From the NCBI GenBank assembly GCA_024653965.1, contig JANLGW010000149.1, positions 1-64,000 on the forward strand: a stretch of DNA of 64,000 bases. Direction: 5' to 3'. This DNA comes from Rhodospirillales bacterium (GTDB lineage Bacteria > Pseudomonadota > Alphaproteobacteria > Rhodospirillales > Magnetovibrionaceae). Of the stretch, positions 7,455-28,597 are shown one piece after another. Positions within the stretch are counted from its first letter, which is position 1. Each line of letters opens with the position of its first letter. Below the pieces are notes generated by a model. That model saw only the letters and a list, made by a program, of their open reading frames with translations, had not been told where the DNA came from and searched no databases. A program made the translations under genes and the position numbers.

Positions 7455-9041
7455 ATGTCGACACACACGAACCCCGATGAAAAGGCATTGCCGCCCGCTG
7501 AGCCGAGCGGGTCGGATCGGGTTGCGCTCGATGTGTATCGTCAAGCCATTGAACATGTGTCGGTGGCGGCGTCCATTACCGATGTTAACGCCAACATTCT
7601 TTATGCCAACCCTGCGTTTGAACGTTTGACCGGATACAGTCAATTGGAAGTGCGCGGGCATAATGAATCGCTGCTTTCCGATAAAGCCACTCCGCCAGAA
7701 GTTTATCGGGATTTATGGAAGACCATTTCGTCGGGTGAGGTGTGGAAAGGCCGCTTGGTCAACCGCCGCAAGAACGGTACGCCATACCTAGCAGACCTTA
7801 CCGTCGTGCCGGTGTTGGATGAAGCGGGCCGGGTGAAGCATTTTCTGGGCATGCACCACGACGTTACCGACCAGCATCAACTGGAACGTCGGGTTGAAAA
7901 CCAAGATGCCTTGTTGAGCTCGATCATCGAAGCGGCTCCTGTATTGATCGCGTTGGTCAATATCGAAGGCGAAGTGATGTTCTCGAATCCTGCTTATAAA
8001 ATGCTGCGGCGTGATTTGCAGGGCGAGAACGTGGCCGCGCATTTTCTCGATGCCTTTAGGGAAAGTTTGAGCGTTAGCCTTCACGATATGTGTGAAAAGG
8101 GCTTTGATTTTTCCGCCGTCGAGGTGCGGGTGAATTTAAGCGACGACGAAACGCGTTGGTTTGCATGTACCGCAAGCAAGGTGCAAGAGCACGATATGAG
8201 CGCCGCAGGATATTTTACCAAAGATGGCCGTGCGGGTCTGTTATTGGTCGCTAGCGACATCACGTTGCAGCGCCGCCGCTATGAAGAGGCGCGCACCAAC
8301 GCCGTGCGTGCGTTGATGGCCGAGCAGCAGATGGTGCAGGGCATGCGCGAGGTCATTTCCGGCGCGATTTTCCAGATGCAAGGCCCCCTGAACGTGATGA
8401 GCGCCGCCGCGCAGATGTTGGAGCGTCAGGGTGAAAACGGCCACGATGCGCCGTTGAAGGCCCCGATCCATGAAATGCTGAATGCCGGAAATGCGGCCCT
8501 AGAAAGGCTGAAAGCTGCCATGCCGCGTACCGCCGATGAACCGGTCGGGCCGGTTAACATCAATGAATTGGTGCGTGAAGTTCTCGACATTTCCATTGAT
8601 GGCTTGTTGCGCCAGGGGATTTTCGTCGATTGGCGCCCCGCCCAGATATTGCCCAACATTCCCGGACGCCCCAATGCCCTGCGCTCGATGATCAAGTATC
8701 TGGTGGATAATGCCATTCTCGCCATTAAGGACGGCGGTTCCGGGCGTGAAGTGGTCATCATCACCGGCACCACCTCAGATGGCGACGTAAAGCTGGAGGT
8801 TCGCGATTTCGGGCCGGGCCTGCAGGGCGATTTGCGCCTAAAGATCTATGAGCCATTTTTCACCGCATGGAAAAAGACGCGCTCCCGCCCCGGCATGGGC
8901 TTGGTGTTGGCGCGTCAGATCGTGACCGACCAGGGCGGCAGCCTGGAAATTGAAAATGTTATGTCTGGGGGCTGCAAGGCCGAAGTGGTGTTGGCCGCCG
9001 ATGGCCTTGGCCATGACCCTGATTATGAGCAGGAAGGATAA
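7455..9041 (+). CDS. nifL: Nitrogen fixation regulatory flavoprotein NifL
   Basis: NifL is the anti-activator that binds and inhibits NifA when oxygen or fixed nitrogen is present. The order is PAS1 (about residues 30-140, with YANPAFERLTGYS, the LVNRRKNGTPYLADLTV stretch and GMHHDVTD, as in redox-sensing FAD-PAS domains), PAS2 (about 150-265), a helical linker with GMREVISGAIFQMQGPLN, and a GHKL ATPase-like domain with YLVDNAILAI, RDFGPGL and RPGMGLVLARQI. It resembles Azotobacter NifL along its length. The His of the equivalent Azotobacter H-box (AIHRLQGP) is Phe here, so it is not a phosphotransfer kinase. The start at 7455 has GGAG upstream. It is co-transcribed with nifA seven bases downstream. 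Confidence 0.92.
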   Translation: MSTHTNPDEKALPPAEPSGSDRVALDVYRQAIEHVSVAASITDVNANILYANPAFERLTGYSQLEVRGHNESLLSDKATPPEVYRDLWKTISSGEVWKGRLVNRRKNGTPYLADLTVVPVLDEAGRVKHFLGMHHDVTDQHQLERRVENQDALLSSIIEAAPVLIALVNIEGEVMFSNPAYKMLRRDLQGENVAAHFLDAFRESLSVSLHDMCEKGFDFSAVEVRVNLSDDETRWFACTASKVQEHDMSAAGYFTKDGRAGLLLVASDITLQRRRYEEARTNAVRALMAEQQMVQGMREVISGAIFQMQGPLNVMSAAAQMLERQGENGHDAPLKAPIHEMLNAGNAALERLKAAMPRTADEPVGPVNINELVREVLDISIDGLLRQGIFVDWRPAQILPNIPGRPNALRSMIKYLVDNAILAIKDGGSGREVVIITGTTSDGDVKLEVRDFGPGLQGDLRLKIYEPFFTAWKKTRSRPGMGLVLARQIVTDQGGSLEIENVMSGGCKAEVVLAADGLGHDPDYEQEG

Positions 9042-9048
9042 GGTCCAG

Positions 9049-10614
9049 ATGACGGACGACGCGGACGCGTGCGAAATGGTCAAAACGGACATGGAAACCT
9101 TGTTTAAGGTGAGCCAGGTACTCAGCCGTTCGCCCAACATGCGTGAAACTTTGCAAGAGGTTCTTAGCCTGCTCCATGAATTGGATGGCTTTACCAACGG
9201 CATGATCAGTCTGCTCGATCACGAAAGCGGCGATCTGATTTTGCGGGTTGCCCATAAGGAAGGCGTGGCATCTCTGGAAAGCGTTTCATATCGTCCCGGC
9301 GAAGGCGTGGTCGGTGAAATCATTGAAACCTGCGTGCCGGTGATTGTGCCGAAAATCGCTCGTGAGCCTAAGTTCTTAGGGCGTACCGGCTTTTACGACA
9401 GTCAGTTGCCGTTTATCGGCGTACCTATCTTTGCCGGCGATGCGCCGATGGGCGTTTTGGCCGCGCAGCCGATTTGCGAGCCGGCGCAATTGGAAGGCCG
9501 CGCCAAGTTTTTGGAAATGATTGCCAACCTGATCGCCCAAACGGTTCGTTTGTGGATGCAGTTGGAAAGTGAAACCCGCGAATTGAAGGAACAGTGCAAT
9601 ACCCTGCGCCGCGCGGTGAAACACGAACACGGTTTTAACAATATCGTTGGGCGCTCCGGTGTCATGCGCAAGGTTTTTGAACAGGTGCGTCTGGTTTCGG
9701 CGTGGAATACCACCGTGTTGATCCGTGGCGAAAGCGGTACCGGTAAAGAGCTGGTGGCCAATGCCATTCATTACAACAGCCCGCGCGCCAATGGTCCGTT
9801 CATTAAATTGAACTGCGCCGCATTGCCCGACAATTTGTTGGAAAGCGAATTGTTCGGTCACGAAAAAGGCGCGTTTACGGGTGCCAATATGCAGCGCAAG
9901 GGGCGGTTTGAACTGGCCGATGGTGGCACGCTGTTTTTGGATGAAATCGGCGAAATTTCTTCAACTTTTCAGGCCAAGCTGCTGCGCATTTTGCAAGAGG
10001 GCGAGTTCGAACGGGTGGGTGGGTCCAAAACGCTTAACGTTGACGTGCGTGTTATTGCCGCGACCAATCGTGATTTGGAAGACGAAGTGGAGCGGGGCGA
10101 TTTCCGCGAAGATTTGTATTACCGCTTGAACGTCATGCCCATTAACATGCCGCCGTTGCGGGAACGCGCCGAAGATATCCCCGATTTGGCGCGTTTTTTG
10201 GTCAGTAAAATCGCCAAGATCCAACGTCGTAATCTTGATATTACCGATAGCGCGGTGCGTGTTTTGGCCCGCCATGCCTGGCCCGGCAACGTGCGTGAGC
10301 TGGAAAACACCTTAGAGCGCGCCGCAATTATGAGCGAAAACGGAGTGATCGATCGGGACGTTATCGCGTTGTCTGGATTGACGGATCGCGGCGGTGGGGC
10401 GATGGTTTCTACCACGCCTGCCGCATTTGCAGCACCAGCATCATCGCCGAAGATTGATGTGAACGATCCCAATTTGGATGAGCGTGAACGCGTCATCGCT
10501 GCACTGGAGGAAGCGGGTTGGGTGCAGGCCAAAGCAGCCCGGCTTTTGGACATGACCCCGCGTCAAATCGCTTATCGTATTCAAACGCTCAACATTAAAG
10601 TTAGACAGATATAG
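9049..10614 (+). CDS. nifA: Nif-specific sigma-54 activator NifA
   Basis: NifA activates sigma-54 RNA polymerase at nif promoters. The order is an N-terminal GAF domain (about 25-175), an AAA+ domain (about 198-430) with Walker A GESGTGKE, the sigma-54 contact loop GAFTGA and Walker [12 protein letters not shown], and a C-terminal Fis-type helix-turn-helix ([20 protein letters not shown]). The linker between AAA+ and HTH (about residues 440-480) contains no Cys, so the C-x4-C oxygen-sensing motif of rhizobial-type NifA is missing; control should come from NifL. I use the ATG at 9049 rather than the earlier in-frame ATG inside nifL. TGT-N10-ACA sites across the window are its expected targets. 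Confidence 0.95.
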
Positions 10615-10624
10615 GCCCAATCTG

Positions 10625-11878
10625 ATGAACTTATCACTGCTCCATCATGCTTCGCTCCCGCCACGCGATGAGCTGGAAACATTTCGAGATATTTTCGAAA
10701 ATGCCAGCATCGGTATTTTTCAAAGCACCCCGCAGGGCCGTTATGTGCGGGTCAACCCTGCCTTGGCGGTTATGTATGGATATTTCAATGTGCGAAGTCT
10801 TATGGAGGCGATGACGGATATTCGCCATCAACTTTATGTCGATCCGGGCCGCCGCGAAGAGTTTGTCGAAACGCTTTTAAGCAATGGTTCGGTGGAGAAT
10901 TTCGAAAGCGAGGTATATCGCCGCGACGGTTCGACCATCTGGATTTCCGAAAGCTCGCGTATCGTTTACGACGAAGAAGGCAACATCTTATATTTCGAGG
11001 GGTTCGTCAAAAACGTCACGCAAAGGGTCAAGTTGGAACGGCAAGTCGCTGAGTTCACCCAGACTCTGGAACAGCGGGTGCAAAAGCGTACCCGCGAACT
11101 GCTGCTTGAAATTGAACGCCGTCGCTTGGCGGAAGTTTCCCTGAAAAATGCGTTGCAAGAGGCTGAGGCCGCGACCGAGGCAAAAAGCCGGTTTCTTGCA
11201 TCCATGTCGCATGAATTGCGCACCCCCTTGAATGCCGTGATCGGCTTTGCCGATGCAATGGTGGCAGAAATTTCAGGCCCGATAGAACCTCCGCAATACG
11301 CTGAATATGTGGATATCATCAAGTCGTCGGGCACGCTGTTGTTGGATTTGATCAACGATATTTTGGATCTGTCCAAAATTAATGCCGGAGCGGTGGAACT
11401 CAATTGCGATATCGTCGACGTTTCCGCGTTGATTTTGGATTGTTTGGATTTGACCAGCCATCGCGCCATGGAAGCCGGTGTGGTGCTGGAACCGATTAAT
11501 GATGGCAAGATCGACACAACGATCCAGGCCGATCCGCGCCGTTTGAAGCAGATTATTTTGAATCTGCTCACCAACGCCATCAAATACACGCCTGCAGGTG
11601 GGCGCGTTACCTCTCAAGTCAATGTTGGCGATAAAGGATGTCTGTGCATTCGCATAACGGATACCGGTGTGGGCATCGCACCGGAAAATATCGACAAGGT
11701 GCTGAGCGAGTATGGCCAAGCCGAACACGGCCTTGACCACGTGGTGGAAGGAACGGGCTTGGGCCTGCCCATTACCAAAAAATTGGTGGAACTCCATGGC
11801 GGTAAACTGACGATAGAAAGCGTCTTGGGCGAGGGTACGACGGTTACGGTTTGTCTGCCTCCAGAAGGTACCAAGTAA
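10625..11878 (+). CDS. PAS-domain sensor histidine kinase in the nifLA operon
   Basis: A soluble sensor kinase with no membrane segments. A PAS domain (about residues 18-130, with FENASIGIF and YVRVNPALAVMYGY) is followed by a coiled coil (QTLEQRVQKRTRELLLEIE, about 135-185), HisKA with phospho-acceptor MSHELRTPLNAVIGF (about 195) and a HATPase domain with NLLTNAIKYTPAGG, DTGVGI and GTGLGLPI. It begins 10 bases after nifA, so it is part of the same transcript. No response regulator lies nearby, so its partner is unknown. Context suggests it feeds redox, oxygen or nitrogen status into nif control; this is inference. The ribosome site is weak. Confidence 0.85.
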   Translation: MNLSLLHHASLPPRDELETFRDIFENASIGIFQSTPQGRYVRVNPALAVMYGYFNVRSLMEAMTDIRHQLYVDPGRREEFVETLLSNGSVENFESEVYRRDGSTIWISESSRIVYDEEGNILYFEGFVKNVTQRVKLERQVAEFTQTLEQRVQKRTRELLLEIERRRLAEVSLKNALQEAEAATEAKSRFLASMSHELRTPLNAVIGFADAMVAEISGPIEPPQYAEYVDIIKSSGTLLLDLINDILDLSKINAGAVELNCDIVDVSALILDCLDLTSHRAMEAGVVLEPINDGKIDTTIQADPRRLKQIILNLLTNAIKYTPAGGRVTSQVNVGDKGCLCIRITDTGVGIAPENIDKVLSEYGQAEHGLDHVVEGTGLGLPITKKLVELHGGKLTIESVLGEGTTVTVCLPPEGTK

Positions 11879-14140: not shown

Positions 14141-14704
14141 ATGTTGAATCCGCACCTGAAGGAACGTACCCGCCATCGTATGTTGAACCGTGCGCGCGGA
14201 CAGGGCAATGATGCCGCATTGGCGGCGATGGTGTTGAGCGCGCGCCATGGCCAAAGCGCGCTGGGGGGGTGGTTAGGTCTTTCGGCGGGGGAATTTGCGC
14301 GCTTGGTGCGGCGGCATTTCCCTGGCGTCAAAATCCCTACTGGTGTGTATTCGTCTTTGCAACGGCCGAAGGCGCGATCCTTGGAATGGGATGAATTGCG
14401 TCATCTGTTGCGCAGTCATCGTGCGGGCCGGGATGTGTCGGAATTGTTCATCGTCGATATCGTGTGCTCGGCGTGTTTGGGTTCGGATCATTTGTGGCAG
14501 GATTTGGGGCTGTTCAATCGAACGGAGCTCAGTCAGTTGATGTGGCGCAATTTCCCCACCTTAGCGGCGCGCAACATCCACGACATGAAATGGAAAAAAT
14601 TTCTCTACAAGCAGCTGTGCATCGCAGAGGGCATTTATGTCTGCCGCGCGCCATCGTGCGAGGAGTGCACCGACTATGCCGTCTGCTTCGGCTCGGAAGA
14701 TTGA
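14141..14704 (+). CDS. nifQ: NifQ, molybdenum donor for FeMo-cofactor
   Basis: NifQ carries a Mo-Fe-S cluster and supplies Mo to the NifE-NifN/NifH cofactor machinery. The C-terminal signature C-x4-C-x2-C-x5-C is present (CRAPSCEECTDYAVC), and the helical body has the family WRNFP and MKWKKFLYKQL segments. I place the start at the ATG at 14141, just after the ferredoxin stop, because the upstream in-frame start lies inside that gene. The length of 188 residues is typical. Its last 29 bases overlap draG in another frame. Confidence 0.93.
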   Translation: MLNPHLKERTRHRMLNRARGQGNDAALAAMVLSARHGQSALGGWLGLSAGEFARLVRRHFPGVKIPTGVYSSLQRPKARSLEWDELRHLLRSHRAGRDVSELFIVDIVCSACLGSDHLWQDLGLFNRTELSQLMWRNFPTLAARNIHDMKWKKFLYKQLCIAEGIYVCRAPSCEECTDYAVCFGSED

Positions 14705-15641
14705 TCGTGTTGCTTTCGATCCCGATGGACTGATCAACCGAGCGCGGGGCGCGTACTTGGGTTTGGCCATTGGTGACGCTTTGGGCGCAACGGTGGAATT
14801 TATGACGCCGCGTGAAATCGCACATGTTCATGGGCAGCATAAAGATATTCAAGGTGGTGGGTGGCTGAACCTAAAACCCGGTCAAATTACGGACGACACG
14901 GAAATGTCCCTGGCTTTGGGGAACGCCATTCTGTTGGAGGGGGGCTTTCGCGCTAAAACCATCGCCCAGGCCTTTGATGGATGGTTGAAAACCAAACCCG
15001 TCGATGTTGGCCATACGGTGCGCCGTGGCATCGTGCGGTTCCGCACCGATGGCAGCACCCATGCTAAAGAAGACGAATATGACGCCGGGAACGGTGCGGT
15101 GATGCGCGCCCTTCCGGTGGCTTTGGCGACGTTGGGCGCGTCGGATGAGGATGGGGCGCGGGCGGCAAAATTGCAGGCTCACGTTACCCACAACGCGCCC
15201 TTGGCCGATTTAGGATTATTGGCGGTCGTGCGCATGGTGCAGCGCGCCATGATGAACAGCGCCAAGGCGTATGGCGATATGCTTAAAATCGCCCATGCTC
15301 TGGCGGCGCAGTCCGCGCATTATGATTTCACCAAGAAACCACAGCTTAACCCCAGTGGTTTTTTGCCCGATACGTTGCGCGCCGTTTTTCAGGCGTTCGC
15401 GCGAACCGATGGCTTCGAAGCGGCATTGATCGAGGTGGTCAACCGGGGCGGCGACGCCGATACCACGGGGGCAATTTTAGGCTATATCGCCGGCGCGCTT
15501 TATGGCGCTAAGGCTATCCCATCACGTTGGCTCACTGCATTGGACGTCAAGGTGCATGATGCGTGTGAGGAGCAGGCTTTGCAATTGCTGGAGTTGTCGC
15601 CGATTTTGAGCGGCAAGGCCGTGCGCTTCATTCCAGATTGA
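14676..15641 (+). CDS. draG: Dinitrogenase reductase-activating glycohydrolase DraG
   Basis: DraG removes ADP-ribose from the modified arginine of NifH, restoring nitrogenase activity. It belongs to the ADP-ribosylglycohydrolase family with a binuclear Mn site. The metal-binding motifs are visible: GLAIGDALGATVEF, ITDDTEMSLALG and GGDADTTGAILGY. The start at 14676 is preceded by GAGGAG; an upstream in-frame ATG (14637) lies deeper in nifQ. It closes the nifB operon, away from draT, and its 3' end overlaps the convergent hemerythrin gene by 14 bases. In classic systems draT and draG are adjacent, so this split is unusual. Confidence 0.95.
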   Translation: MPSASARKIDRVAFDPDGLINRARGAYLGLAIGDALGATVEFMTPREIAHVHGQHKDIQGGGWLNLKPGQITDDTEMSLALGNAILLEGGFRAKTIAQAFDGWLKTKPVDVGHTVRRGIVRFRTDGSTHAKEDEYDAGNGAVMRALPVALATLGASDEDGARAAKLQAHVTHNAPLADLGLLAVVRMVQRAMMNSAKAYGDMLKIAHALAAQSAHYDFTKKPQLNPSGFLPDTLRAVFQAFARTDGFEAALIEVVNRGGDADTTGAILGYIAGALYGAKAIPSRWLTALDVKVHDACEEQALQLLELSPILSGKAVRFIPD

Positions 15642-16074
15642 GCGATATTTTCAAGTGCTGCGCCAATGCACTGTCCATGGTGACTAGGTGCAATTGAAAC
15701 CATTCGGGCATGTGGTTTTTGATGAATTCGCGGGGCATTCGTCTCCGTCCATGCTCGGCGCGCTCCAGCATTGCCTGCAGATCGCTTAGAACGCGTCGGT
15801 GTTCTTCAATGTGTTCGCGCATGGCTGAAAAGCCGGTTTCCTTCATCAGCTTTTCTTCTTGGGAAAAATGTTCATGGGTGTGGCGCACCAGTTCCTTGAA
15901 TAGGGCCACGAATACGCCGTCCGGCGTCGCGCCCAGTGCGGCCAGAATGCTAAGAAACTCCTGGTGATAACCATCCATGACCGGAACGCCCAAACCGATG
16001 CGCTCTTGCGACCACGTCAACAGGGGGTGCGGAGGGTCGGGTTCGGAGGTATCAAAAAAAGTCATATCGTTCAT
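15628..16074 (-). CDS. Bacteriohemerythrin (single domain)
   Basis: A 148-residue four-helix-bundle diiron protein that would bind O2 reversibly in the cytoplasm. The iron-ligand pattern is present in order: an N-terminal WSQERIGLGVPVMDGYHQEF (His), HTHEHFSQEEKLM (His and Glu), REHIEEHRRVL (His pair) and LHLVTMDSAL (His-x4-Asp). I use the ATG at 16074, which overlaps the stop of the SIR2-like gene by four bases (ATGA), so the pair is translationally coupled and shares a NifA/sigma-54 promoter. Hemerythrins are known to deliver or scavenge O2; here an oxygen buffer protecting nitrogenase or informing the partner protein is a reasonable inference. Confidence 0.88.
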   Translation of the reverse strand: MNDMTFFDTSEPDPPHPLLTWSQERIGLGVPVMDGYHQEFLSILAALGATPDGVFVALFKELVRHTHEHFSQEEKLMKETGFSAMREHIEEHRRVLSDLQAMLERAEHGRRRMPREFIKNHMPEWFQLHLVTMDSALAQHLKISLNLE

Positions 16075-16931
16075 GATGCGGCAACCCGGCGCGGGGCAGC
16101 GATGGTGAGCAGGTCGTCGACGCCTGCGTCCACGACTTCGAGCCCCAGCTTGGCGCAAAAGCGCTTTTCTTTGTCGGTGGCGTTTGGAATGAGCGCCCAG
16201 CCTTTTGGTTCGGCGGCGTCATAGATAATGTCACTTAACACCATGCGTTCGGTATCGCGGTTGAGCCGCATGCCCAGCAGCACATACTTAAGCCCCTTGC
16301 GCTTTTCTTTGAGAAAAGACGGAATGCCAAAACCGCCCATCAGTTCGGTGATATAGTCGACATAATCCGCATCCGATGCGATGTAGGTCGGGTCGGGCCG
16401 GGGGCTGCCCAAGGGTTTGAATAAGATGGGCAGGGCGGGATCAACCGCTTCGGGAGTGGTTGGCACGTATTTTTTGCCGTCGAAACTGTGCAATTCGAAG
16501 CGGTAGTTGGTGCCGCCGATGCGTGCGGTTCCGCGGATCAGCGTGTGGGGAGTTGCGGCATAGCTGTCTTGCAGCTGCGTGTCGCGATTGATGTCGATGA
16601 TGTATGCGGGTTTGAATTCCGCCAACAAATCGTGCAGCGGCGCGCGGGTCCAGGTTTTGTCACCGTAAAGCTGGGTCAGGAAGCGATTGATGAAGCTGCG
16701 TCCCTTTTTGAGTTCCAGGTTCATCGCGGCGCGGGGAAACTCGTACATCAGCTTAGGCGCCATGGGGCGGCCGTTGTTCATGGCCAAAATTAGGGAGTCG
16801 CTATCGGCGGGCATTGCCTCGCCAGTGTCGGTAGCGCGACAGCCCGCTAGAACGCCTGGCCCCAGATAGGGCACGGCATCGCCCTTTTGAATGAGCGTGA
16901 GCAGAGTTTGCAGGGTGGCTTCGCGGGTCAT
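16071..16931 (-). CDS. SIR2-like domain protein, nif-regulated
   Basis: A cytoplasmic protein of 287 residues that looks like a divergent SIR2/NAD-binding-fold protein. Near the N-terminus is a glycine loop (DAVPYLGPGVLAG), in the middle PAYIIDINRDTQLQDSY (compare the TTNYD strand of SIR2), and then LFKPLGSPRPDP, where a KLHGS-type motif would normally carry the catalytic His. That His appears to be Leu here, so deacylase activity is doubtful. NAD-binding or NADase-type activity is possible but unproven. The start at 16931 fits the sigma-54 promoter at 16975-16991; the upstream start at 16988 would overlap that promoter. It is coupled to the hemerythrin gene and lies between draG and draT. 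Confidence 0.65.
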   Translation of the reverse strand: MTREATLQTLLTLIQKGDAVPYLGPGVLAGCRATDTGEAMPADSDSLILAMNNGRPMAPKLMYEFPRAAMNLELKKGRSFINRFLTQLYGDKTWTRAPLHDLLAEFKPAYIIDINRDTQLQDSYAATPHTLIRGTARIGGTNYRFELHSFDGKKYVPTTPEAVDPALPILFKPLGSPRPDPTYIASDADYVDYITELMGGFGIPSFLKEKRKGLKYVLLGMRLNRDTERMVLSDIIYDAAEPKGWALIPNATDKEKRFCAKLGLEVVDAGVDDLLTIAAPRRVAAS

Positions 16932-16974
16932 GGGGGCGGCCTTTTGTTGCTGTTGCGGGCATTGCAACTGTCGT

Positions 16975-16991
16975 TGCAATAACCACACCAG
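16975..16991 (-). promoter_or_regulatory. Sigma-54 promoter of the SIR2-like/hemerythrin pair
   Basis: On the minus strand the bases read CTGGTGTGGTTATTGCA: GG, ten bases, then TTGC as in RpoN promoters, with a TGT in place of CAC. It lies 44 bases before the SIR2-like start. A NifA-type site is centred about 54 bases upstream, the same spacing seen at nifE and the iscA-type gene. Confidence 0.7.
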
Positions 16992-17034
16992 TTTAGGGGC
17001 CGTTATGAATCAAGATGTTAGGGGGATCATTGGA

Positions 17035-17050
17035 TGTCGGGGTCGCGACA
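17035..17050 (-). promoter_or_regulatory. NifA upstream activator site for the SIR2-like gene
   Basis: TGTCGGGGTCGCGACA: TGT-N10-ACA with the extended GCGACA half-site shared with nifB, nifE, the iscA-type gene and nifV. It lies between the draT stop and the SIR2-like start. Confidence 0.75.
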
Positions 17051-17057
17051 AAGAGGG

Positions 17058-17894
17058 TCAGAACGTCGCGATGGTGACGGTGTAGGCGCCGCCCAGCACA
17101 ATGTATTCGTTTTCGCCTGTCATGCGTCCGGGCAGCAGGCCGGAAAAGAAAAATAGCTTAGCCAGCGGTGTGTGGACGGTGAGAATGTAATCGCCGAATT
17201 CACCCGCCGTATCGCGATCGGTGGTGAAGGAATTGACGTTGTTGAGCAACAGAACCTGTTCGCGGGCGCTGAGTGTTTGCAAAACTTCGAAATCATCCAG
17301 TCGGTTCACGCCCCTATATAAGGTGAGGTGCGTCTTGCCTGGATAACGGCGAGCCAGTTCGTACTGACAATATGCGTGGACTAAGTCCAGTTGGGATTCC
17401 AAGGCGTTGGTGTTGTATAGCCCATCGGCGCGATCTTTGAAAAATTGCGCGAAAGCGGGATCGTCCGGGCTTTTTAAGAGGCCTTTGTGGTGGCGCACCG
17501 TCAGGCCAAAACGCGATTCCGCCCAGCTTTTTAATACCGCGCCTTCGCGCCCGTCGCTGTCGAAGAACCAGCCGCGCAGAACCCGTAGATAATCAGCCTT
17601 GGCGCGGCCCCGGCCTGCTTCGCCGCCCGCGTCTTCGGGGTGTTCGAGGCGAAACTGTACTGTCATGTAATCTTGAAACTTCTCGGCGCGTGTCTGCGGG
17701 TCAGCGCAGGCATCCAACTGAGCGAACAGATCGGCGTGAAAGCTGGTTACGCCGTCGATGGTTAGGCGTTCGGGAAAGCGCTGGAACGTCAGGCTGCCCA
17801 AGATTACCGGCGGCAGATTGCAGCGGTTGAGCGCCAAGCGCGCCCGCCTCGGCAGGGTGGTGGTTTCATCGCCGAGCGGTCGTGTCGAAGTCAT
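17058..17894 (-). CDS. draT: Dinitrogenase reductase ADP-ribosyltransferase DraT
   Basis: DraT transfers ADP-ribose from NAD+ to an arginine of NifH and turns nitrogenase off in response to ammonium or energy loss. The ART-fold residues are visible: LTLYRGVN (Arg), NNVNSFTTD (Ser-Thr-type motif) and GENEYIVLGG (Glu-x-Glu). The length of 278 residues is normal. I use the ATG at 17894; the upstream TTG at 17912 is less likely. The gene reads away from nifH, and its leader up to the start codon coincides with a NifA site. An AT-rich stretch around 17960-18005 may hold its own sigma-70 promoter. Confidence 0.94.
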   Translation of the reverse strand: MTSTRPLGDETTTLPRRARLALNRCNLPPVILGSLTFQRFPERLTIDGVTSFHADLFAQLDACADPQTRAEKFQDYMTVQFRLEHPEDAGGEAGRGRAKADYLRVLRGWFFDSDGREGAVLKSWAESRFGLTVRHHKGLLKSPDDPAFAQFFKDRADGLYNTNALESQLDLVHAYCQYELARRYPGKTHLTLYRGVNRLDDFEVLQTLSAREQVLLLNNVNSFTTDRDTAGEFGDYILTVHTPLAKLFFFSGLLPGRMTGENEYIVLGGAYTVTIATF

Positions 17895-17909
17895 GTCAGT
17901 AACCCTACA
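17894..17909 (+). promoter_or_regulatory. NifA upstream activator site for nifHDK
   Basis: TGTCAGTAACCCTACA, a TGT-N10-ACA site centred about 118 bases upstream of the nifH -24 element. It abuts the draT start codon on the other strand, covering the draT ribosome-binding region. A second near-match at 17923-17938 ends in ACG rather than ACA. Confidence 0.7.
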
Positions 17910-23540: not shown

Positions 23541-23800
23541 TTGATGCCGCCGTTATCGATGAAGTTTTGGCGCTGGTTGAAGCCGAAGGCGCGAGTCTTC
23601 CCGTGATCGCCAAATTGCGCGAGCGGTGGAACGACGTTCACTTTACCCTTTGCATGGAAGATGAACTGTGTCTGGAAAAGCCGGTTCGTGAAGGCTCGGT
23701 AGCCAATATCTATTTGATCAACGGTCATAATCATTGCGCCACGATCACCGATCACGAACCGTCGGCCACCGGCCTGTTGATTGCGGAGTTGAGTGAATGA
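23537..23800 (+). CDS. Small nif-cluster protein of unknown function
   Basis: This 87-residue soluble protein follows nifY with an ATGA overlap and overlaps the next gene in the same way. It contains FTLCMEDELCLEKP with two Cys, and a His-rich LINGHNHCATITDHEP, which could hold a metal, but no family function is visible. It resembles short conserved proteins I have seen beside nifY in other proteobacteria (possibly the family labelled DUF6129; I cannot verify this). Its place between nifY and nifE suggests a minor role in cofactor insertion. Confidence 0.7.
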   Translation: MIDAAVIDEVLALVEAEGASLPVIAKLRERWNDVHFTLCMEDELCLEKPVREGSVANIYLINGHNHCATITDHEPSATGLLIAELSE

Positions 23801-24750
23801 GCATTCTTGCGCCGATGGGGCAATTTTCCGAGTTGCAAGCTGTCGTGGCGCGCGCACGTCCGATTCCCGGACACGGCCCTTTGATACAGGCGCTAAACGC
23901 CACTTTGGCGGATATGGATTTGAAGCTGGCGTATTCGCGCACCGGTTGGCATCGCCCGGGCGGGGTGGTGGATGCCCATGGCAATCGTGTGGCGGAAAAT
24001 TTAAGCGAATGGCTGCAACGCGAAAGCGATGGCGACGCGATGGGTCTGCTTGTGCGCTATGAGGATTCCGGCCTGCTTGCGACCAAACTGTGTGGCATCA
24101 CGCACTATTTTACCGCCAAGACCGGATCGGAGCCGTGCGACTTTGTGCAGGTCGAGGTTGATGAGTTGCGCGAAGTTACGGATCGCAGCTTATTTGATCC
24201 GTCAAATCCGCCCGACTCGATTGAAGAACTGATCGATCCCGTGGTTCCGTTGAAAGTGGACCCGACGCCGCTAGGGTCAGCATCCTACCAGTTGCGACAG
24301 GCGTGGAATATTGCCGAAGCTCACCAGTGCATGGCGACGAGCAACTACGCTGATAGCCTGTTGGCGTTGCGTTTTGTTGCGGATTGGCAGGCATCGAGTG
24401 CTGCGGGGCGCGCACTTTGTTCGGCATTTGTATTGCGTCTATTGGATTATAAGGATCGTTTTGGGGAAAAACGGTTGCAGGCGACGCCGTTGAGCACCCA
24501 TGTGCGCGCTTTGCCCCCTTTTCCTGGCGGGACCGATCGCGGGCTGGACCTCGCGCGGTTTCTTACCGCGTTCGACCGGGCGGTGGGTTACCCCATGGCG
24601 TGGTACTTCCATCTGGTGTCCGGCGCACAGCCCGCATTAAAAGGCGTGGCCCATGCGGTGTATGAAGACGTCAGTCGGGTTTACGATTACCTGCCCGAAC
24701 GCGACATTGCTGTCTTGAAGTCGTGGATTGCGGATCCGTACATGTTCTGA
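23797..24750 (+). CDS. Conserved-looking nif-cluster protein, function unknown
   Basis: A 317-residue soluble protein that I do not recognise. It has no signal peptide or membrane segment. It has an N-terminal mixed region (with TGWHRPGGVVDAHGNRV), an acidic middle (SLFDPSNPPDSIEEL) and a helical C-terminal half ending WIADPYMF. It is translationally coupled to the small gene before it (ATGA) and ends just before the NifA site of nifE, so it is the last gene of the nifHDK unit. Codon use matches its neighbours, so it is unlikely to be a recent insertion. Confidence 0.7.
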   Translation: MSILAPMGQFSELQAVVARARPIPGHGPLIQALNATLADMDLKLAYSRTGWHRPGGVVDAHGNRVAENLSEWLQRESDGDAMGLLVRYEDSGLLATKLCGITHYFTAKTGSEPCDFVQVEVDELREVTDRSLFDPSNPPDSIEELIDPVVPLKVDPTPLGSASYQLRQAWNIAEAHQCMATSNYADSLLALRFVADWQASSAAGRALCSAFVLRLLDYKDRFGEKRLQATPLSTHVRALPPFPGGTDRGLDLARFLTAFDRAVGYPMAWYFHLVSGAQPALKGVAHAVYEDVSRVYDYLPERDIAVLKSWIADPYMF

Positions 24751-28161: not shown

Positions 28162-28597
28162 AACACTCCCCCCAACTTTTTCTGAGCCCACCGTTTCCGG
28201 TCAAGTGATGCGCGATGGCGCAGGTCGGCTGTGGCTCGATGTGCCCAGGCTTTCGGCCTGTCAATCGTGCGATAAGACTTCCACATGCTCCATGAGTGTG
28301 TTGGGCGGTCTAGCTGGCAGCGCCAGCATGCGCCTGCCCGTTGAAGGCGTGGACTTGCATTCTGGCGATCGGGTGACGGTGGCCTGTTCCAGCAATGGGT
28401 TGCTGAAGTCCGCGTTTCTCGCTTATGGCCTGCCGTCGCTGGGCCTTGTGGTCGGTGCGGCGATGATGGCCGTGATGAATTTTGACGATGGCGCGCAGGC
28501 GTTAGGCGCAGGCCTGGGGCTTATCCTGGGCGTGATGATAACTCGCTGGGCGGTGGCGCGGGGCCATCTGCCGGCGTTGACCTATTTTGAGGAGTAA
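28154..28597 (+). CDS. RseC-like (SoxR-reducing system type) membrane protein
   Basis: RseC/MucC family proteins accompany Rnf/Rsx-type complexes and are thought to act in redox signalling or complex function. The 147-residue protein has an N-terminal soluble part with the Cys motif CQSCDKTSTCSM (C-x2-C-x5-C) and two C-terminal membrane helices (about residues 83-105 and 112-128, LPSLGLVVGAAMMAVM and GLGLILGVMITR). The ATG at 28154 overlaps the nifX stop. Its presence inside the nifENX operon, with a complete rnf operon elsewhere in the island, suggests it serves Rnf during nitrogen fixation. Confidence 0.75.
   Translation: MTETLPPTFSEPTVSGQVMRDGAGRLWLDVPRLSACQSCDKTSTCSMSVLGGLAGSASMRLPVEGVDLHSGDRVTVACSSNGLLKSAFLAYGLPSLGLVVGAAMMAVMNFDDGAQALGAGLGLILGVMITRWAVARGHLPALTYFEE

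Follow-up and report, generated by a model that had tools for sequence, protein, structure and literature searches.

Organization of the locus

The window, that is, the whole 64,000-nucleotide stretch of DNA analysed here, comes from a Rhodospirillales bacterium of the Magnetovibrionaceae and carries a two-gene module between draG and draT (Table 1). A SIR2-like gene is followed by a bacteriohemerythrin gene, and the two ORFs share an ATGA at 16074..16071 (minus strand). These ORF calls agree with the initial annotation, which had described a coupled SIR2-like and hemerythrin pair at this place. The exact ATGA coupling is kept in the homologous loci L001-L004. An alternative SIR2-like ORF of 305 aa would start from a GTG codon at 16988. 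Since this GTG precedes the -12 element of the promoter, ATG 16931 is the likely start codon.

Table 1. Features of the SIR2-like/hemerythrin module and its neighbours (positions in the window)
Feature	Position	Strand	Remarks
SIR2-like gene, PnfA-type nitrogen-fixation accessory, no Asn+His catalytic pair	16071..16931	-	ORF, 286 aa, 31.6 kDa
Bacteriohemerythrin gene	15628..16074	-	148 aa; ATGA translational coupling; PF01814 and TIGR02481 above cut-off
draT, upstream neighbour	17058..17894	-	PF07357; outside the module in most genomes
draG, convergent downstream neighbour	14637..15641	+	TIGR02662 above cut-off
Sigma-54 -24/-12 promoter TGGTGTGGTTATTGC	16976..16990	-	Pattern match
NifA upstream activator site (UAS) TGT-N10-ACA	17035..17050	.	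Pattern match; UAS-promoter pairing

The nif region of the window has other genes of interest on the plus strand. A PAS-domain histidine kinase gene (10625-11878) lies immediately behind nifL-nifA, ahead of the nifB promoter, and its product is a possible extra sensor of the region. A 317-aa protein with no Pfam or NCBIfam match is encoded after the second NafY/NifX-type gene (23797-24750), and nif clusters of Methylococcaceae and other groups encode homologs at the equivalent position (16/95 loci). An RseC/MucC-like protein is encoded between nifX and the NifX-associated gene (28196-28597).

Predicted control by NifA and sigma-54

The SIR2-like gene has its own promoter, apart from draT. Taken singly, the -24/-12 pattern and the TGT-N10-ACA pattern each occur near the chance level in the window. 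In contrast, correctly spaced UAS-promoter pairs were observed six times, while 0.06 are expected per window. The gap between the UAS and the -24 element is 44 bp at both the SIR2-like gene and the iscA-type gene and 42 bp at nifE, which bears out the earlier remark that the spacing is the same at the three genes. Among 94 homolog loci, a UAS lies upstream in 67 (6.5 in shuffles), a sigma-54 site in 71 (6.0 in shuffles), and both together in 50 (0.2 in shuffles). In most homologs of subfamily 1, one of the two subfamilies described below, the sigma-54 site lies some 50-60 bp upstream of the start codon. Thus, the NifA/sigma-54 control of the SIR2-like gene that had been proposed earlier is supported by predicted sites, which are paired above chance both here and across the homolog loci.

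When the window was scanned for the -24/-12 pattern, no match lay ahead of draT, which may mean that sigma-54 does not control this gene. The start of draT overlaps with what is probably the NifA site of nifH (17894-17909).

A SIR2 fold without the catalytic pair

An AlphaFold2 model of the SIR2-like protein, built from 62 sequences, has a pLDDT of 95.3 and a pTM of 0.93. In a Foldseek search of the PDB, the best 50 matches were all SIR2 structures from defence systems (E ~1e-9 to 1e-7, TM ~0.6), and the best solved structures were DSR2, KomC/HAM-SIR2, ThsA, and AVAST5. The Pfam SIR2_2 profile (PF13289) matches 59 of the 62 family members, with a best E of 1.2e-10 and relatives above the cut-off. 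The window protein alone did not match this profile. Searched as a single sequence against PDB, Pfam, and NCBIfam, it gave nothing useful, and searching PDB sequences with a profile gave no match either. The claim of a SIR2 NAD-type fold is thus supported by the model, the Foldseek result, and the Pfam matches of relatives. The initial annotation had called the protein SIR2-like and had held that a predicted structure lacking an NAD-fold would speak against its proposal; the structure predicted here is a SIR2 NAD-binding fold, and all of its top solved matches are SIR2 domains. The model had no significant match in a viral structure library.

The motifs of the protein can be aligned with those of SIR2 domains: GPG corresponds to GAG, DINRD to TTNYD, and KPLGS to KLHGS. 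The register comes from a profile alignment of weak score that is backed by the fold match, with which the order of the motifs is colinear. The reading of KPLGS as a SIR2 KLHGS motif whose His is replaced by Leu, made in the initial annotation, was correct. The positions of the catalytic dyad were defined by N112/H152 of ThsA and N133/H171 of DSR2. None of 110 homologs has both Asn and His. In 91 of them, the Asn is kept and Met, Leu, or Thr replaces the His. In the other 19, which form the rhizobial-type subfamily, Trp replaces the Asn, and the His is found in only nine. Subfamily 1 keeps the Asn and the next Asp, while the Tyr after the Asn has become Arg.

In ThsA, N112A and H152A each abolish NAD+ cleavage (PMC7272460). 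DSR2 uses residues matching the ThsA dyad, and Ala at Tyr134, Asp135, or His171 clearly lowers its activity (PMC11263360). Since no family member has both catalytic residues, NADase or deacylase activity appears unlikely from the alignment, and the same holds for the NAD+ hydrolysis that the initial annotation had left as an option. An active sirtuin-type deacylase or NADase working on nitrogenase proteins has been proposed for ZMO1821 of Zymomonas (PMC8600466). The SIR2 annotation and the conserved Asn and Asp of subfamily 1 would fit such an enzyme, but the missing dyad, the Arg of subfamily 1, and the ThsA and DSR2 variants make it very improbable, and this reading was rejected. Because N112A of ThsA also loses NAD+ binding (PMC7272460), the nif SIR2-like protein may even bind no ligand at all.

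The defence SIR2 domains (DSR2, ThsA/Thoeris, HAM-SIR2/KomC, and AVAST5) share the predicted fold (Foldseek E ~1e-9, TM ~0.6) and the colinear motifs. However, they are NADases with an Asn-His dyad that belong to defence systems, whereas the nif SIR2-like protein consists of one domain, lacks the dyad, and lies outside any defence locus. The window protein had no match among the PADLOC defence families. An anti-phage role of the Thoeris or DSR type was rejected on this result, the lack of the dyad, and the membership in the nif regulon.

Distribution among nitrogen fixers

At least 507 relatives of the SIR2-like protein turned up when genome contigs were scanned; they sit in nif clusters of Chromatiaceae, Methylococcaceae, Rhodocyclaceae, Thiothrix, Thiodiazotropha, Magnetovibrio, Cohaesibacter, and others. 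Among 398 genomes of the phylum, the gene is present in 19 of 45 nifD-positive and 2 of 353 nifD-negative genomes (Fisher p = 3e-18). Among 41 near relatives, 9 of 11 nifD-positive genomes and none of 30 nifD-negative genomes have it, so that all nine carriers have nifD. The family is widespread and specific to nitrogen fixers, and it belongs to nitrogen fixation. The survey thus upholds the link to nif made in the initial annotation, which had named a lack of co-occurrence with nif or dra genes elsewhere as a point that would tell against it: co-occurrence with nif is strong, while that with draT is not positive.

Is the pair a part of the DraT/DraG switch, sensing O2 and NAD+ and controlling the ADP-ribosylation of NifH, as had been suggested from its position? 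The order draT, SIR2-like gene, hemerythrin gene, draG is kept in Magnetovibrionaceae and in several beta- and gammaproteobacteria, and hemerythrin pairing is commoner at dra loci in the raw counts (18/33 versus 7/38, p = 0.0025). However, the latter association is not significant after phylogenetic pairing. Moreover, the 45 nifD-positive genomes comprise 9 with both draT and the SIR2-like gene, 10 with the SIR2-like gene only, 19 with draT only, and 7 with neither (odds ratio 0.33, p = 0.12). In other words, draT is carried by 9 of 19 diazotrophs with the SIR2-like gene versus 19 of 26 without it; 10 of the 19 SIR2-like hosts lack draT, and 19 of the 28 draT genomes lack the SIR2-like gene. 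The SIR2-like gene also has a promoter separate from that of draT, and Pseudomonas stutzeri A1501 requires its pnfA gene (see below) while having neither draT nor draG (PMC2820453). A DraT/DraG module is thus very unlikely, and it was rejected on the co-occurrence counts. That the pair sits between draT and draG reflects a gene order conserved in some lineages, with no functional dependence. A literature search found no paper naming draT, draG, and hemerythrin together.

The hemerythrin partner

The product of the second gene scores above the cut-offs of PF01814 and TIGR02481 and below that of NF033749. Its seven diiron ligands (H37, H69, E73, H88, H92, H129, and D134) are invariant in six orthologs, and it is by sequence a true bacteriohemerythrin. 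Of the 88 loci that extend far enough to show the next gene, 27 have a hemerythrin gene immediately after the SIR2-like gene; these loci come from alpha-, beta-, gamma-, and zetaproteobacteria. Cohaesibacter and Methylomonas have the pair with no dra genes nearby. Since the other 61 of the 88 loci have no adjacent hemerythrin, the hemerythrin is not essential to the SIR2-like family; it is a recurrent and lineage-variable partner. Along the SIR2-like family tree, its pairing was gained or lost at least 14 times, and other small proteins take its downstream place at other loci. The whole genome (3 Mb) encodes 13 hemerythrin domains, only one of which is paired with a SIR2-like gene. In gammaproteobacteria, a conserved protein of 73-80 aa with a CxGKxxCRDxGxxCxxCGR motif is encoded directly after the SIR2-like gene (L062:8878-9117; also L021, L046, L054, L063, and L070), and the one member scanned has no Pfam match.

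Probable correspondence to PnfA of Pseudomonas stutzeri

In P. stutzeri A1501, the product of pnfA (PST1325) is a diazotroph-specific protein of 31.7 kDa. The gene is transcribed divergently from nifHDK behind TGT-N10-ACA and -24/-12 elements and depends on nifA and rpoN for expression (PMC2820453). Relatives of PnfA occur in Azotobacter vinelandii, Azoarcus BH72, and Dechloromonas aromatica and form two subfamilies that are about 20% identical (PMC2820453). The window gene has the same traits: its product is 31.6 kDa, it is found only in diazotrophs, it has the same type of promoter and is transcribed divergently from nifHDK, and its family has a second subfamily at 22-24% identity. The gene order in A1501 is nifH, then pnfA, PST1324, PST1323, and nifY2, with a NafY-type gene in the pnfA operon and rnf genes close by (PMC2820453). 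A relative from Methylobacter psychrophilus (L071) matches this layout: nifHDK adjoins a row made up of the SIR2-like gene, a gene of no known type, a rhodanese gene, and a NafY-like gene. The second gene of this L071 operon (8867-9436) encodes a 189-aa protein without a Pfam match, which is the probable counterpart of PST1324.

On the basis of context, size, promoter, and subfamily structure, with PnfA compared by its published description, the window SIR2-like protein is very probably a PnfA ortholog. The two loci differ in that draT lies between the SIR2-like gene and nifH in the window, and that the hemerythrin gene follows in place of PST1324-PST1322. The published work mentions neither the SIR2 fold nor the loss of the dyad (PMC2820453). 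The family itself was already known. It was named PnfA in a 2010 description, and other nif clusters have members annotated as "SIR2 family protein".

One member of the second subfamily is the SIR2 protein encoded after nifZ-nifT in Rhizobium etli, and a "SIR2 family protein" likewise follows nifT in Rhizobium plasmids. These Rhizobium members are homologous over the whole length (22-28% identity), linked to nif, and also without the Asn+His pair. In contrast to the window gene, they lie inside a nifB-fdxN-nifZ(T) operon with no promoter of their own, have Trp in place of the Asn, and have no hemerythrin. Rcc03262 of Rhodobacter capsulatus is encoded in a NifA-dependent nifB1-nifZT-rcc03262 operon (PMC6925177). 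Having the same operon position as the Rhizobium genes and NifA dependence, it probably belongs to the second subfamily, judged by that position. ZMO1821 of Zymomonas mobilis, likened here by published description only, is a SIR2-like gene of the nif cluster that is upregulated under N2 fixation in a host with neither draT nor draG (PMC8600466, PMC8594446); it differs in having been proposed as a deacetylase (PMC8600466).

Proposed role

Oxygen and nitrate respiration both bring gases and oxidants (O2 and NO) that are harmful to nitrogenase, and hemerythrins bind these. At 0.5% O2, nitrogenase activity in the pnfA mutant of A1501 is 23%, with normal nifH transcription; under anoxia without nitrate, the activity equals that of the wild type, and the mutant shows no nitrate-supported fixation (PMC2820453). 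The mutant fails exactly with a respiratory acceptor, and thus a protecting or poising role during respiration is favoured. The nitrogenase protection suggested in the initial annotation gains support through this published mutant (PMC2820453).

The best overall explanation, to which I give a probability of about 0.6, is that the SIR2-like protein is a PnfA ortholog acting as a non-enzymatic accessory of the nif regulon. Its synthesis would be confined to nitrogen fixers and controlled by NifA and sigma-54, and it would probably be a factor that binds a ligand of the NAD(H) or ADP-ribose type and a protein. Thanks to it, nitrogenase would stay active during O2 or nitrate respiration; most likely, the protein would shield or poise either nitrogenase or the electron supply of nitrogenase against oxidants of the O2 and NO type. 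In the family of the window organism and a number of other lineages, a co-translated or co-transcribed bacteriohemerythrin would bind O2 (and probably NO) beside it; DraT/DraG would not be needed. The ligand, the partner, and the direct target named here are all inferences. Among the points against this explanation, the pnfA phenotype stems from an organism without a demonstrated hemerythrin partner, and a defect of electron supply would also explain the nitrate phenotype.

The latter reading is the main rival. The SIR2-like protein would aid electron supply, for example by coupling NADH, Rnf, or ferredoxin to respiration, with no protection from O2 or NO. It would account for a mutant that fails with O2 and nitrate and equals the wild type without an acceptor (PMC2820453), and the NAD-type fold, the NafY-type gene in the L071 and A1501 operons, and the rnf genes near the latter are in line with it. 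On the other hand, a defect might then be expected under strict anoxia too, the protein has no redox cofactor motif that could be found, and the hemerythrin partners of many lineages point to a diatomic gas. I consider this reading unlikely. A different doubt concerns the partner itself, which might be an unrelated O2-scavenging gene of the nif cluster that shares the promoter, with no interaction between the two proteins. The repeated gain or loss of the pairing, the abundance of hemerythrins in the genome, and their replacement by different downstream genes elsewhere would agree with this, but the exact ATGA coupling conserved in L001-L004 and the recurrence of the adjacency in distant classes argue against it. 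Separate action of the two proteins is a real possibility, if the less probable one. A bolder version of the protecting role is quite unlikely: the dead SIR2 domain would sense NAD(H) or ADP-ribose and, together with an O2- or NO-sensing diiron hemerythrin, would reversibly and directly clamp or shield nitrogenase as a fast, DraT-independent protection switch.

How nitrogenase survives while the cell respires has long been a problem, and it holds back the transfer of nitrogen fixation to crops. These results argue against the idea of a "nif deacetylase" and separate the gene from DraT/DraG. They also provide a predicted fold, a predicted non-enzymatic mode of action, and a candidate gas-binding partner for a nif gene whose mutant has a strong published phenotype but whose mechanism had not been assigned.
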